Shown: positions 38,016 through 53,201 of the stretch, in pieces
Position numbering within the stretch: position 1 is the stretch's first letter
How the letters are laid out: each line of letters opens with the position of its first letter
Assembly: GCF_030253575.1 (NCBI RefSeq)
Contig: NC_080561.1
Location: 11,766,001 to 11,830,000, forward strand
Direction of reading: 5' to 3'
Origin: Rhododendron vialii
Lineage: Eukaryota; Streptophyta; Magnoliopsida; Ericales; Ericaceae
Length of the DNA: 64,000 bases
Program-made: the position numbers and the translations under genes
Notes under the pieces: generated by a model
Seen by the model: only the letters and a program-made list of their open reading frames with translations
Database searches by the model: none
What the model was told of the DNA's origin: nothing

Positions 38016-38376
38016 GAGCATCTCCAACTATTGACTTCAAATTGGAGATGTCAATTTTTTTTTAAGGCTAATGTGACATTTTGACATCTCCAATTTGACA
38101 TCAAAACCTCATCTCCAACCTTTATGTCAAATTCTATTTATTTGACATCAAATTATCCATTTCCAACCCTTATGTCAAAATACAAAGTCATTTTTTGAAA
38201 TTTGGTAGGCAAGGTGTAGGTAGTCAAAGTTGGCATGCTTCCTCCCCCCATCATCCATGTCAAAAGCCACGTACGATTTGGCCTAAAAAAGGCATTTGGT
38301 TTGGTTTGTCAATTAGTGTCAAATATTACAGTTACAAGCTCCACATCATATTTGACATCTCCCGTTGGAGATGCTC
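38016..38376. mobile_element. Tourist-type (PIF/Harbinger) MITE, 361 bp
   Basis: Ends GAGCATCTCCAAC and GTTGGAGATGCTC, flanked by TTA on both sides (38013-38015, 38377-38379). The left part also contains the end sequence again (aattggagatgtcaa). Confidence 0.88.
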
Positions 38377-45896: not shown

Positions 45897-48800
45897 GAGT
45901 TGGATACTTTAACATGATATCAGAGCTAGGGTTTCGGAGAATTTGTTCCCCCTTATTTGTGCCATAAGTGCACTGTTGTTTGTTGTAATCCAAGTGTTAT
46001 GGGTCATTTGTTTACCTCTCCACATGCAGTCAGGGGTCGCTTGTGCGGGGAAGTGTTAGAGTTTGTCCCATATTGATTAAATATAACCTCCAAACCTAGT
46101 CTATGAGCCTGGGGGGCCTCTCCACTTCTTGCCAACTAGTTTGAAGTTGGATGCCTTAACACTTACCATAACAAAACAAAAAAAAAGAACAAACCTATCA
46201 TGAGGTCATGGCTCTCCTAAAGATGAAGAGCTGGTGTTATTGATTGGATGTTGAATGAATCCTCCCAGCACGAGTCTTAAAGTGCCAATCCTTGTGGCAG
46301 TGTGCCGTCTTTGAAAAGGAATAACAAGTTTAGAGTTTTTTCTACACCCACAAAATGACTGAAAACTTGCAACTTAGGTGGTCTTAAACAATTTATGTCC
46401 AAACAACCTTGCAATTCATTCTAGAGAAGCACATGAAAATTCTACTATACAGAGTGAACTTAGCTTAAAAATGTTCAGAAAATTATAGCACAACCACCAA
46501 CAGGCAAATCCCTTCATAAAAATTATGATCGTGTAGATCATCACCTTTCTCCTTCATTTCATAACCAACATCACTTTTCTACTTTTCTACGAAAATGCCT
46601 TTGTTAGTAGGTCTTTTCATCCAGAATAGATAGTTCAACCAAGGATAGCATTAACCAAGTAAATATAGATGATTTTTAACAAGAATAATGCAACAGTTAT
46701 TTAATAACAAAGCATCAAGGACAGTGCTAGGGCGAGGCACGTACCGTTGACAATTTATTTAATGTACCATCAATCTGAACAAAGTATGCTTCCAGGAGCA
46801 TTTCAAGCTCTTCCACATCAAGATGCTTGCTTATGACACTATGGGTGGTACTAGTGTGGGTCCCATGACTGTCTCTTCTAAGCACATGAGATGCTGCGTA
46901 GAGCTGTTCTTGGGTGTTATCAATATTATGGACATTACCTTCAAAACTGGTGGAAGCCCCATTAACATCTGACAAAATTGCAGCAGGAATGCTGCTAAAA
47001 AAAAAAAGCTGATCAAAAAAAGAAATTCCAGCAGGAGTCCTGACGTATTACAAGAACTATATTGCATGTGCCTAAACAGAGGATGGGTCCGAGAACGATG
47101 AAGCAATATGCAATGATATAACATGCCTGTCATCCATGTTGGATCGAGCAACATCATCATCTATGCCATCATGCTCATCCATAGATGGTTGAGAAGAATT
47201 TTCAAGGTGCTGTTGCACCATTTTGTCGGTAAGATACATCTCTGCCATGTCTTCATCGTCATCTAATAGCTGTTCTAGTTCATCCCTTACCTGAAATGAA
47301 ATAAATGCATCTTGATCCAGAAAAACAAGGAACACGTTGAATAAGAAAACCTAGGAAATAGAACTGACAGCAGGGATAAATAGACAAAAGCTCCAACCTA
47401 TAAAACTGCAACACTGAGATCATGGAGTAATACAACCCGCTTATGACCAATATAAACATATGGACTGATATCGATTAATTTGCATCCACTTATATAAGCA
47501 TAAAACGATAAAATTTGAAAGCACACTATAAAAGCACGCCCCTCAATTAGCACACCCTTACCAAGCAGTTAAAGATCTATACTGCAAATGCTTACAACCG
47601 TTATTCTACTCAAGTTCTTCCCATTAAGATAAATAGGGACCTTGGCTAGCCTTCCAACAAATGGGTTGATTTGCAGAACGGAAGAAGCAAGGTAGTCCAT
47701 ACTGCGAACCAAGAAAAACAATTCTCCAAAACAGCAAACAACTTGTTCGGAGCACATCTTTTTAGGAAGCCCAAAACCCATTAGCTTTCAGTATATATTC
47801 AGGGCACTGACATCAGCCATTGGTTATTGGCCCTTGTGCAAGTTTCTCATCCATATGTTATGTCACTTCAGCCCAAACAAACATGACTGACAAATTGGTT
47901 TCCAAAGCGTATACTGCACGTTAATATGCAGAAAGAGCCAAGCTATGTCAGATCAAAAAAAATAATAATAAAGAGCCAAGTTATGTGAATGTTTATTTGG
48001 ACATCCAACGGAAACAAAGAAACAATAGAACGCACACATAGCAACAGTTATTTCCGCTGTTTCTGACAAATTTCATGAATTCCTTTAATTCTGCTAATTT
48101 CAACATATCCAACTAATCAAAAGCAGATAAACATATACAAAACTAGTCTTTTGGGTGTTAGATGAGAAGTGGAGAACGCTTGTATGGCCCATATGATGGT
48201 GGGGACGTGAGGAGAGTAAAGTTCAGGTAACATATATGGAGGGTAGAGAAGCTAGAGGTTGCTCTCCCTGTGGTTCTTAATGTTGCAGTGGGTAGGAATT
48301 CTACTGTGGAAGATTATGCATGTTTTTGAACATTTCAACACAACTCCATCCGCAAGATTAGGAGGTCAGCGAGTACTTGGGACTCCAACAGATTTTGGGA
48401 AGCAATTTCTCACTCGGGGTGCGCAATGTGTTTATATAGTCAACAACTCAACATCTTTCCTCATTTTTTAAGACTCAAAACAACGTCATAATTCAAACTA
48501 ATTGCAAAACCAGTGCTTCAATATTTCACTAGCATTAGATATCACTCAGAAAATGGACGGATACACAAGAAAGAGAAACAAATTTCAGTCTTTCAACACC
48601 ATACTCATTAATTTAACTTACTCTATTCAACTCAACAAGCTTGTGTCTCAGGAGTGGCGACTTCATTTGGTCACTATTTTATAAGTTGTGAAAAGTTAAG
48701 TATTGAGATGGTTGTGAACTTATCTCAACCCTCCTCCTTTCACTATATTGGAAGCAGCTACATAAAAGATGAGATCCTAAGCACAACACAAGAGGAAAGC

Positions 48801-51800
48801 CATTCCTCAATTCCAGTCCTCAGAACTGGTGGTAGAGATGAACTGAAAACCCACCGGCATAATATGCACAACGTGGCGGCTCATACACTTGAACCTGCAT
48901 CAAGAGCTACTGCCACCTCAAGGACTTGTTCTCCCGCTTAGTGGCCCGAGCTATTACCACTTGTACAGAGCAAAGCCAACAACAGACTTGCTATAACAAC
49001 AAAACCATTGTTGGCCTATCATTTACCCCACCAAATAAACAGAATGAATCAGAACCATCTGTCTCTACCATAAATTGAACCACCTCCTTGTAGATTAGGA
49101 TGACATGGATAAGGTATAAGAAGTCACGTAAAGAGGAGGTGTCAAAGATCAAATTACTTCCAACCCATTTATTCCTCATGGGCCCTCATAAAAACTGATA
49201 AAAAAAAATGCCAAAAATACGATCTCTAAAGGATAAGTTGGATCAAACGGTCGAAATGTAAGTAAAAGCAAAACCATTTACCTTTTGAACACGACCAGTT
49301 ATTGCAACCAAGCGGCTTTTAATCTGACGAACACGTTCCAAATTAAGAGTACTAATTTTTGAAGTCAGCTTATCTAAGGCTGGATGAGCTTCTTGTTCCA
49401 ATGTCCTCGCCTGAATTTACATCCCAGGACAAATCAATACAAAGAAGAGAAAAACAAATCGAATCCACAATATGAAGACAAAAAAAAAGTAACCATGGTA
49501 ATAATGACAACAGTAGCAACAATAATGATTGAACAATGAATGAACATACTAGTTCATTAATAAAAAAGTTCTTCAGTTTCCAACATCGAATGGATGGATT
49601 AGTTAATACTCCCAATGTCCCTTTTTGTTTTTGTCAATCAATAGGAGAGATCATTACATAACGTTTTTTAGTACAACATACAAACTACGAGACACTACAT
49701 CAACTGTGTGAGAGTCCATGAGATAACCGAGCCCAACAACTCAACCAACAAGATAAATAAGCCCATCAAAGGGAATAAGCCCAACTCAACTACAAGCCCC
49801 ATTAAGGGGAGAAATAACCCCAACAAATGAAGAACACCCACACGTAGGTGGGAAGACTGGAACTCCTCGTCAACTGAACTAGCCCCAGTTGGTTCCTACG
49901 TCACATTTTATTCGTATACTTTTCGACTTTTTGATGTCCTAGACCCCCAAATTATTTGTTCATTTTGGAAAGCCAATGGTCAAGATCCAACGAATTTTCC
50001 CTTGCACCCCTGTCTCTTGAACAGATCTGACAAGTCTTATTAGATTGAAGGACATTTTCAAAAATTTCTAGTTAGTTTGCAATCATAATGCTTCCCTAAT
50101 AAGTTAGATTCTTCAAACTAGACAAACAAATTGGGAAGGAGGGAGTAATAACGTTCTTAGGCTCCGTTCCGCAACCCAAAATAAGTACTTATTTTTTAAG
50201 AAAACAATTTTAAACTCAAAAATAATGTGTTTACGCAAATAATTTTCCTACCAATATAGATCTTGTTTGATAGATCCCATCAAGATCTTTCATACGGTGC
50301 AAAAAAAATTAAAAAATTATTTTTCATTTACATTATTTTTGAGTTTGAAAGTGTGACATAAGCTGCTTATTTTTTAAGAAGGTTTCTGGAACGGGGCCTT
50401 ACTTCGTTTTCCAAGCAACTGCACGCAGCCTCAAGGCAAGCCTCCAAAGCAATAAACTCAAAGGGAAGAACTTTCAATCCATCTTGTTTATCAAAAGCTC
50501 CTACCCCATCCACCTTACCTCCATCGTCATTTCCTGGGAAGCCTTCGGAAAACTTTTGAGGGCTATGTGACCTTGATATTGGCTCTACCAAATCAAACAG
50601 ATTTGTCCAGTCTGTATCATCGGCATTAAAACCGCCCTCCTTCGAAACCATTGGCGCAACACAGGAAACAATTAGCAACAATACTTCGTAACTAACTCTT
50701 CTACAAATATTAAGGCTGGTGAGGATTAAAGAAGTAACTTCAAAACCATTATACAATAAAATAAGAAGTAAAGCTGTGCAGAGTTAGGAAAATCTGTTTT
50801 AACCCTTAGAACTGATCAACAATAGGTGCTTCAAAATGTCCCGAACACATAGCATGTCCACTTAATGACAACTGCACAAGACTACAAGTCAATCATGTCT
50901 TTCTAGTGTAAGGGCTTTGAAATGAACTTACGAGATTCTTTTGGATGGTTATGGATTTCAAATGAATGGTATTGACATTACTCAATGACAGTAACTCAAA
51001 CTTACATTTGATTACACAGCGCTTTTGATAATGGGGTTGTTTCTTTAATATGTTCGATATTGAGTTTAGAGCTCTATGGATTTGATGGTTTACATCGCGC
51101 TTTCGACATTGAGTTTATTCTTTAGTGTGTTTATTGAGTTTGAGAGCCCCATTTTGCTGGATTTGGAATAACTATTAAATAGAAAGTGATTTGAAATCCT
51201 TCATGTTATGATTTGCAGCTATACACCTAATAAAATTCATTTTTTTCTACTTCAAACCCACGTTTGAAAAAAAAAAAGTTACTTCAAACCCATCTCCCAC
51301 TATAATCTGATAAGCCACCTACAACTAAAACCCTTGTACTTTTGTTAAAATCAATGATATAAAAATCGCCAGGCGCTAGTTAGGCGGTCGGCCACCTTTA
51401 AGCGATTAATAGCTGCATATTAATTAGTAATTGGTGATTATTCATAGTCGGACCTAATCGGGGGTGCAAGCTATTAATCGCCGATTAATTCCTTGTTTTA
51501 AAACACTGGTTAAAATATAATACCAAATCCCTTCATTTGGAATCCACATTCATCTAAAGATTCCAAACAAAGCCTTATTGTTGTTAGTCCAACAGTGACT
51601 GAATTAGCACTGCACTTAGATGATCTCCCCCAAAGCTAATCTTTTCTTGCTGATTGTATTAACTTCGTAGACTGTTGCTTATGATCCATTGAAATTCTTT
51701 CCTTAAGACTCAATCATAGATTTGTGGAGGTATCAACTGAGGGAAATGAACACGACCGGAACCAATGGAATACACCCAACTACCTATCTCCACTTTCTTC

Positions 51801-52737
51801 ATATACTATTCACCCCTCCCCACTTGTCTCCGTCCCAATTTGTTAACCCTTGTTTTTAGAATCCATGTTTTCCTGAAATCACATACATCTTCAAATTTAT
51901 AAGTTTTTCCTTTTGATAAGTAAATAATTATATTAGAAAGAAGGCATTAAGGGCCACCCGTATACAAAAGAAGGCTACAAAACAAAAAGGCCCTATACAT
52001 TTCCAAGAGAATGGAAAAGCTCAAACCAATCTAAAAATTGATCAAGGGATCACATTTCTTCCTTGTCCCAAATGTACAAGTTATTCACCAAATTCTTTTT
52101 TATCCTAGACAGAGGTTTTTCCACCCCTTCCAGAACTCTCGAATTTCTCTCACGCCATAAGATCCACATCAAACAAAGCAGAATCATGGCCCACAAACTC
52201 TTCTTTCTCTTACCCATTCTAACACCCGTCCAAACAATTAGAAGTTCCATGACATTTCTTGCCTCAGTCCACACTGTATCCCAAATTTATAAGTTTAATG
52301 GTGATTGAAAATTTGTATTTATCAGAATTAATTGAGATCCGTTTAAAGATGCATATTGCATATGGAAAGCACAGTCAATTAAAAAATATCAAGAAATTTT
52401 CTGTCCTATCAGCATAGAACGAGGGATGAACATATCTCTCTAAATTTATGGTTTTAATGTGATTGAAAATATCTATTTATCAGGGTTTTTTGAGATCTAT
52501 CTAAAAGATGCAATCAATTAAAAAATACCAAGAAATTTTCTATCCAGTCATAATAGAACGAGCGACCAACGAATTGCGACGGAACGAGTAATACAATTTC
52601 AAATAATCAAATCATTTCTACTTAGTTCTTCACCAGTTGCAACTTCCCGATTGATTAGTGTACTATATAATTCAATGCTATTCGGTAGATAAATACACGC
52701 ATATGTACAACAGTAGACGGAGAAAAATAAAACGATG

Positions 52738-52782
<45 letters not shown>

Positions 52783-53201
52783 TGGGATTTGGTAGCGTGG
52801 TGGTGGCGCAGGATACGACGCTGAAGCTCCTCAACGAAGGGCATCACGGAAGGATCTCGAGAGTTGAGCAACAAAACCTCCTGGGCCGTGATTATGGCCT
52901 TGATGTGCTCGAGGTTGATCACGATGGCCCGTTCCCGGCCCAGCACGGTGGACGGGTACGAGAGGAGCGGGTCGAGGATCCGGAGGTCGCGGGCCGGGAG
53001 ACCAGTCCGCCGCATGATCGCGTGCTTTCCGGCCTCAACTACCTGGGCCTGGCCGGCGGCGTCGAGGAGGAGCCAGGGACGCACTCCGGTGGCCTTCTTC
53101 CGTAGCCCGCCGCCGGAGGCGGCTGGTCGGGGTGTGTCGTTGTCGTCTTCGGGGAGAGGGAAGCCGGACTTCACAGGTGGCGGTGGGTGAGAGCTCCTCA
53201 T
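44940..53201 (-). CDS. MRS2-3: Magnesium transporter MRS2-3 (CorA/MRS2 family), six exons
   Basis: Join on the minus strand: 53201-52782, 50639-50403, 49410-49282, 47290-47127, 46994-46745, 45227-44940. That is 1488 nt and 495 residues; Arabidopsis MRS2-3 is about 484. MRS2 proteins form membrane pentamers that carry Mg2+ into the cytosol or an organelle. Near-identical landmarks to MRS2-3 by recall are KHAIMRRTGLPARDLRILDP and SYPSTVLGRERAIVINLEH in exon 1, FEFIALEACLEAACS in exon 2, KISTLNLERVRQIKSRLVAI in exon 3, VRDELEQLLDDDEDMAEMYL in exon 4, LDVEELEMLLEAYFVQIDG in exon 5 and REYVDDTEDYINIMLDD in exon 6. The signature GMN is at residues 448-450, after TM1 (about 427-447); TM2 is about 465-487 and the tail is CKHKRLLE. 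Intron 4 needs a GC donor (CAG|GCATGT) to keep frame; the other introns are GT-AG. The exon 2 acceptor could be 3 nt further in. Introns hold many repeats, listed separately. Confidence 0.93.
45553..46161 (+). mobile_element. Tandem TRIM relic with three LTRs, in MRS2-3 intron 5
   Basis: Three direct repeats of about 107-116 bp lie at 45553-45668, 45808-45914 and 46054-46161. Each contains tttgtccca near the start and ends in aaca. After the first and second comes a primer-binding site, tgatatcagagc (45669-45680 and 45915-45926), close to the tRNA-iMet-type TGGTATCAGAGC. Purine-rich tracts precede the second and third. The two internal regions are only about 130 bp and code for nothing. This is a terminal-repeat retrotransposon in miniature (TRIM) in an LTR-internal-LTR-internal-LTR layout, as left by recombination between copies. 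The LTRs differ visibly, so it is not recent. It is non-coding and old, and lies antisense to the host gene. Possible 5-bp flanks are similar but not identical. Confidence 0.82.
47291..49281 (-). other. MRS2-3 intron 3, no recognised insert
   Basis: 1.99 kb of AT-rich sequence between exon 4 (47290) and exon 3 (49282), with canonical GTAAAT and TTTCAG ends. Short frames at 48654-48941 on the plus strand are not supported by anything else. Confidence 0.6.
49609..50145. mobile_element. Stowaway-like MITE with a nested insert, MRS2-3 intron 2
   Basis: Ends ctcccaatgtccctttttg and aaattgggaaggagggag, target TA. The interior 49640-49910 differs from other Stowaways. Read on the minus strand it ends in gattgacaaaaacaaaaa, like a SINE or LINE tail, so a retroelement probably landed inside. 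Confidence 0.6.
50160..50398. mobile_element. Tourist-type MITE inside the splice donor of MRS2-3 exon 2
   Basis: Ends ggctccgttccgca and ctggaacggggcc, flanked by TTA on both sides (50157-50159, 50399-50401). Arms include ttattttttaaga and complement. On the minus strand exon 2 ends GAA at 50403. The donor that follows is G (50402), then TAA from the target duplication, then GG from the element tip: GTAAGG. The pre-insertion donor, read from the far flank, was GTAAGAACG. Confidence 0.87.
51352..51508. mobile_element. hAT-type MITE in MRS2-3 intron 1, 157 bp
   Basis: A perfect 8-bp duplication, gttaaaat (51344-51351 and 51509-51516), flanks it. The right end is TTTTAAAACACTG; the left end, CAATGATATAAAAATCG, mirrors it loosely. 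The interior has ggcgattaat/attaatcgcc-type palindromes. Confidence 0.8.
51909..52285 (-). mobile_element. LINE 3'-end fragment in MRS2-3 intron 1
   Basis: On the minus strand a frame (52274-52050) reads MELLIVWTGVRMGKRKKSLW and MWILWRERNSRVLEGVEK, the pattern that ends plant LINE reverse-transcriptase polyproteins (WxxWxERNxRVFE). The 3' end is ATTTACTTATCAAAAGGAA, the usual LINE tail with a short A-rich end. Only about the last 380 bp is present, as expected from 5' truncation during target-primed insertion. It lies in the same orientation as the host gene. Confidence 0.7.
52739..52778 (+). repeat. (GA)n tract at the start of MRS2-3 intron 1
   Basis: About 20 GA units (CT on the gene strand), beginning four bases after the exon 1 splice donor. 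A CT run also precedes the start codon (53202-53219). Confidence 0.93.

Follow-up and report, generated by a model that had tools for sequence, protein, structure and literature searches.

An MRS2-type gene and the element at the edge of its second exon

The window, by which we mean the whole stretch of 64,000 nucleotides analysed here (G000:C5:11766001-11830000), is part of a 532.6-Mb assembly in 13 contigs. On its minus strand, from about 53201 to 44943, lies an MRS2-type magnesium-transporter gene whose exons were joined by hand. The hand-spliced protein matches the MRS2-like family PF22099 in three stretches (E 2.3e-36), also matches solved Mrs2 structures and carries the GMN motif as GIFGMN in exon 6; the CorA profile scores 4.5e-6 and 26.6 bits, slightly below its cut-off of 27. 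With an MRS2 domain and the GMN motif, the product is predicted to be an MRS2/CorA magnesium transporter. Exon 1 (52782..53201, minus strand) is putatively MRS2-3-like, runs from the ATG to ...KSQ and ends at the donor CAG|GTTTCT. Exon 2 (50403..50639, minus strand; 237 nt, phase 0 at both ends) encodes EGGFN...CSCLENE and has the 3' end ...CLEAACSCLENE. Exon 3 (49282..49410, minus strand) starts with ARTLEQEAHPALDK behind the acceptor TTCAG|GCGAGG, a start that is common to the paralogues. The joined exon pieces are free of stops over 1461 nt. This lends weak support to a working gene, since about two stops would be expected at 4.2% neutral divergence and the probability of finding none is about 0.14.

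Several further features of the gene can be described. From the end of exon 4 (donor region 47119-47130), exons 4 and 5 could be joined in two ways, either from a GC donor ACAG|GCATGT to TTTTTAG|CAG in phase 2, where the frame fits with TTTTTTTTTTTAG|CAG, or from a GT donor CAT|GTTATA to GATCAG|CTT in phase 0. The acceptor of exon 4 (47285-47293), CAG|GTAAGG, resembles both an acceptor and a near-perfect donor. Complementary microsatellites flank exon 1 on the minus strand (52741-52778 and just above 53201): an (AG) run, of which 14 nt are shown, ends at the ATG, and a (CT)19 run begins 3 bases past the exon end, so that the two could pair across exon 1 in the pre-mRNA. Intron 1 holds an open frame at 52053-52286 (WRERNSRVLEG...) whose product looks to us like the terminal part of a plant LINE reverse transcriptase.

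The 5' splice site of exon 2 coincides with the end of a transposable element. A Tourist-like MITE of 239 bp occupies 50160..50398 on the minus strand, with the ends GGCCCCGTTCC and GGCTCCGTTCC, of which 10/11 of the first terminal bases match after reverse complementation. It starts at intron position +5 (50398), intron +1 being 50402, and it is bordered by two minus-strand copies of TAA, one on the exon side (50399..50401), where it forms donor positions +2 to +4, and a distal one (50157..50159). Along the minus strand the layout is ...TTGGAAAACGAA|G TAA GGCCCCGTTCC...GGAACGGAGCC TAA GAACG, and the donor region between exons 2 and 3 reads GAA|GTAAGGCCCCGTTCC. The present splice site GAA|GTAAGG (50397..50405, minus strand) is composed of a host G at +1, the target-site duplication (TSD) at +2 to +4 and the MITE tip at +5 and +6. 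When the element and one TAA are removed, the flanks join as GAA|GTAAGAACG, and positions -3 to +5 of the donor are the same before and after the insertion. The remainder of the old donor context, GAACG... (50149..50156, minus strand), now lies 242 nt into the intron. An earlier sequence-only reading of this DNA had described a donor made of one host base, TAA and MITE tip, had named GTAAGAACG as the old donor and had stated that the first five intron bases were unchanged. The layout bears out each of these points exactly, the old donor following from the joined flanks and GTAAG being regenerated. Its assignment of the element to Tourist-like (PIF/Harbinger-type) MITEs with a TAA duplication also agrees with the TSD, the ends, the size and the copies described below. 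At the level of the sequence, regeneration of the donor is well supported.

The structure of the element stands out from chance pairings in the window. The triplet TAA or TTA recurs in identical form at a distance of 120-450 bp in 28,421 pairs. Four of these have inverted ends that match at 10 or more of 11 positions, and two of the four, the MITE at the donor and a pair at 38016-38376, remain when AT-rich ends are excluded by requiring G or C as the first base and fewer than 9 A/T among the 11. The second of these stretches is itself element-like: it measures 361 bp, its bordering triplets (TAA or TTA) agree, and its inverted ends, starting GAGCATCTCCA, match at 11/11 positions. A family with an 8- or 9-bp TSD (hAT, Mutator) was ruled out for the MITE, whose borders show solely TAA repeats with symmetric GG...CC ends. 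A blastn comparison within the window (E up to 10) returned no further copies of the element; the matches were the element itself, parts within it and mostly AT-rich stretches of at most 32 bases.

The position of the donor was compared with related genes in the same genome. A search with exons 2 and 3 gave 19 matches, and seven paralogous stretches were read. Four of them cover both exons and contain the intron, and in all four the donor lies at the same codon and in the same phase, after ...LESE: GAA|GTAAGT in the closest paralogue (L095; exon 3 TQTLEQEAYPALDELTSK), GAG|GTATGT in L096, GAG|GTAAGT in L097 and GAG|GTATAT in L101. No MITE lies at any of these four donors. In two more stretches (L098 and L099), whose exon 2 falls beyond the piece read, exon 3 begins at the same place, and in L100 the intron is missing at the homologous place. 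The matches at C5:12043187 and C11:30311891 run through the exon 2/3 junction and have no intron there. Judged from these loci, the intron is a feature of only part of the MRS2 family. The junction ENE|ART aligns gap-free with the fungal Mrs2 8q8p. The worry that the donor might lie elsewhere is thus largely answered by the four MITE-free paralogue donors and the gap-free junction.

Predicted behaviour of the rebuilt donor

We propose that a non-autonomous Tourist-like (PIF/Harbinger-type) MITE entered an existing MRS2 donor, GAA|GTAAGA, at its TAA. With the TAA duplicated and an element that starts with G, the exon side again reads GAA|GTAAG, and the old +5 side has been pushed 242 nt deeper into the intron. 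Since -3 to +5 are identical before and after the insertion, the rebuilt site would most likely still be a donor. We consider it likely that the insertion took place in this way and that the rebuilt donor is still serving the gene.

The best U1 duplex has five pairs with each donor, at -4.5 kcal/mol for the old and -5.0 kcal/mol for the new one, given the U1 sequence that we assumed. The folded stretch beats its shuffled versions (z = -4.98; 0/200 fold as well), and in its best structure +4, +5, +6 and +7 form the first pairs of the stem, with -2 to +3 paired to exon bases. The two tips of the element, one of them the source of +5, can pair with each other, a point that the sequence-only reading had overlooked, and +4 to +6 would thereby be base-paired at the foot of a hairpin. 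Opening of -2..+6 is calculated to cost 3.4-3.7 kcal/mol before the far repeat is transcribed and 7.0-8.1 kcal/mol after, against 1.2-3.9 kcal/mol at the empty site in all settings tried. Pairing is also predicted to predominate in the empty donor, where -1 to +4 have unpaired values of 0.03-0.17. With the whole element present, -2 to +3 would be more open (0.37-0.84) than at the empty site and +4 to +6 closed (<=0.08). All of these folding energies leave out proteins and kinetics and are therefore predictions. From the energies by themselves one would expect a donor that is closed most of the time, since the opening cost of 7-8 kcal/mol exceeds the 5.0 kcal/mol of the U1 duplex, and splicing may depend on U1 binding first. 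Under the mechanism that we favour, the donor would lie at the foot of a 239-nt hairpin and would be used most efficiently when U1 reaches it ahead of the transcription of the far repeat, a race in which about 240 nt of transcription would be available. A share of the transcripts would then be expected to retain the intron, to skip exon 2 in frame or to be spliced at an upstream GAG|GTAAGG.

The same calculations bear on the alternative that the insertion restored the sequence of the donor without its function, the hairpin hiding the site and the allele being impaired, with exon 2 skipping, use of the upstream GAG|GTAAGG or retention as outcomes. The opening cost of 7.0-8.1 kcal/mol with the full element and the hairpin z of -4.98 would fit an impaired allele, and so would the routes open to a transcript whose donor fails. 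The possible competing donor GAG|GTAAGG (50513..50521, minus strand) lies in exon 2, 116 nt upstream, and pairs more strongly with U1 (-10.1 kcal/mol, the rebuilt donor having -5.0). Splicing from there would change the frame, since 116 mod 3 = 2, and the site was not seen in the closest paralogue, L095. A transcript that skips exon 2 would stay in frame, the exon having 237 nt and running from phase 0 to phase 0, at the loss of 79 residues including LPFEF. On retention the frame would read through to a stop after 11 codons beyond the exon, ending ...ENEVRPRSRNLLKK*. A short intron inside exon 2, from GAG|GTAAGG to a later AG, was rejected by eye, being merely about 50 nt long. Against an impaired allele speak the exon pieces that are still open at 4.2% divergence of the element, a weak point, the ability of U1 to bind ahead of the synthesis of the far repeat, and the prediction that -2 to +3 are more accessible with the full element than at the empty site. 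Long stems such as a MITE hairpin are also limited by proteins that bind the nascent RNA. We regard an impaired allele as unlikely and prefer the reading in which the rebuilt donor is still used.

The element family and its choice of target

The genome holds at least 41 matches to the element, namely the window copy, 39 near full-length copies (91-95% identity) and one partial copy, counts that are lower bounds as the best 40 of 3756 first-look candidates were scored. Seven close copies (L002-L008) were inspected. TAA stands on both sides in L005, L006 and L007 and TTA in L004; L002 has no clear duplication, and the main copies of L003 (TAA/TTA) and L008 (TAA/GAA) have mismatched triplets. Two of these loci contain two family copies each, at 1264-1495 and 1502-1740 in L003 and at 1083-1316 and 1507-1742 in L008. 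A stricter count, with at most two mismatches at each end and the same triplet on both sides, gave 36 full elements in the loci and the window, seven of them away from the centre of loci selected for GTAA; the window MITE is one of these seven. It differs from the consensus of its seven closest copies at 10/239 positions (4.2%), and the insertion would not be fresh if this consensus resembles the source. The terminal inverted repeats (TIRs) GGCCCCGTT and GGCTCCGTT both have the start G(N)5GTT, which the available text of PMC2213677 gives as a Tourist-type TIR motif. In its TSD, ends, size and copy number the element thus has the sequence characters of a Tourist-like MITE.

The sequence-only reading had further suggested that plants may tolerate Tourist insertions at GTAAG donors as a class, because the site regenerates itself, and had called for a comparison of donor insertions with chance. 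The genome allows this comparison. The exact tip NTAAGGCCCCGTT of this and related elements occurs at 952 ends (reversed-pattern controls 4, 6 and 35), preceded by C in 389, by G in 99 and by A or T in 464. With a background before TAA, in the loci and the window, of 16.7% C, 16.4% G and 66.9% A+T, C is favoured 2.45-fold and G is disfavoured 0.63-fold. Such a preference points to a palindromic target of the CTTAG type and not to a donor. The target of the maize PIF element has a similar core, CTTAG; in the part of the related literature that was searched, this motif did not occur.

Ends reading GTAAGG with either tip (CC or CT) number 188 in the genome, with 15 for the reversed-pattern control. 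We examined 85 of the 188 (84 and the window's own, identical 80-base contexts being merged), and 43 of the 85 contain a complete element flanked by TAA at either end, compared with 0/85 for a reversed decoy tail. In 22 of the 43 full insertions the old base after GTAA was G, where the background is 19% (p = 2e-6), and GTAAG is targeted about 1.7 times as often as the mean NTAAN site, an excess that arises because G after TAA is preferred. Ends of the form AG|GTAA, which is how donors usually read, are under-represented, with 2/188 against 10.5 expected (p = 0.0015; reversed-pattern control 1), which target taste or selection could either explain. Before GTAA the 43 full insertions have 24 A, 14 T, 5 G and 0 C, and the A at -1 of the MRS2 donor agrees with this taste of the element.

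Extrapolation gives 49 full GTAAG insertions and 0.9-2.3 expected donor hits, one being known. The estimate uses the 15,000-40,000 GTAAG donors that we assume for the genome, and it is somewhat low, as many background loci were chosen for containing GTAAG. The one known donor hit is at chance level. Among the 85 sites MRS2 provides the only shown donor, in a coding scan of the other 84 that missed its positive control. A Pfam scan of 70 frames of at least 25 codons at these 84 sites matched kinase families (one member each) and gave two weak Rv2743c matches (best E 0.00096), while the control exon 2 went unmatched. Other cases of a rebuilt donor may exist unseen in the genome.

These counts weaken the wider suggestion of tolerance at donors. 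They also weigh on the idea that Tourist elements target 5' splice sites, or are selectively kept there, through self-repair. For it one can cite the 22/43 insertions with G after GTAA and the 1.7-fold rate at GTAAG. It is met by the family's preference for C and avoidance of G before TAA, by the shortage of AG|GTAA ends and by a number of true-donor hits without excess over the 0.9-2.3 expected, and we judge it very unlikely. Least probable of all, and largely refuted, is a coincidence in which no working donor was hit, the exon really ends at another place and GTAAG arose from TAA and a G-starting tip, as it would at any host G and as at the 188 GTAAGGCYCCGTT sites of the genome (control 15), most of them presumably outside exons: the GT donor at the same codon in four paralogues, the gap-free junction against fungal Mrs2 and the joined flanks GTAAGAACG all oppose it.

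Significance and relation to known systems

The MRS2 locus offers a concrete case of a cut-and-paste element that came to lie on a splice donor and left its first five bases unchanged. The donor was rebuilt in its sequence, and the gene can probably still be spliced. If transcripts confirm this, it would be one way in which intron edges absorb transposons. A general escape route for intron edges is not supported in this genome, where the family avoids G before TAA and the single known case is at chance level. If the hairpin matters, the locus would be a natural test of the competition between U1 binding and intron structure. One may go further and suppose that elements with a TAA duplication and G-starting TIRs do not destroy GTAA donors but turn them into timing-dependent ones, with +5 at the foot of a long hairpin. 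We put this forward as a doubtful extension; were it true, splicing efficiency would hinge on U1 preceding the far repeat, and the elongation rate would set the isoform ratio.

Compared with the Tourist-like MITEs of the PIF/Harbinger group, as characterised in the available text of PMC2213677, the element shares the 3-bp TAA/TTA duplication, short TIRs with G(N)5GTT, the short length and the many copies. The element itself shows no difference from them; what is unusual is its landing inside GTAAG with the donor rebuilt. MITEs at splice boundaries are likewise found in the plant cases of MITE-associated alternative splicing, which in the accessible portions of PMC12595863 and PMC6593561 concern new, alternative or disrupted splice sites and exonisation, with no regeneration of a donor by a TSD found there. 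More broadly, a MITE that rebuilds a plant 5' splice site by means of its TSD was not described anywhere in the literature searched, a partly narrow selection with few subscription journals, some of it available in part. The [D1,2] stwintrons (PMC12403724, available portion) are similar in that an outer intron has its donor interrupted by another sequence and that near-terminal inverted repeats can, in some of them, pair as RNA. They differ in that the insert is itself an intron, that they showed no TSD and that two splicing reactions take place.

A parallel in how the splice site is made is offered by the introners, in which, according to the available text of PMC9860276, splice sites likewise come from a TSD and an element end. 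Among animals and land plants the same text lists introners in only two groups, both of them animals. The MITE at the MRS2 donor was rejected as an introner, as the paralogues have the intron without the element. Introners make a new intron in an exon (PMC9860276, same portion), whereas at MRS2 an existing donor was rebuilt in an intron that is older than the element. The case described here can thus be seen as the repair counterpart of introner formation.
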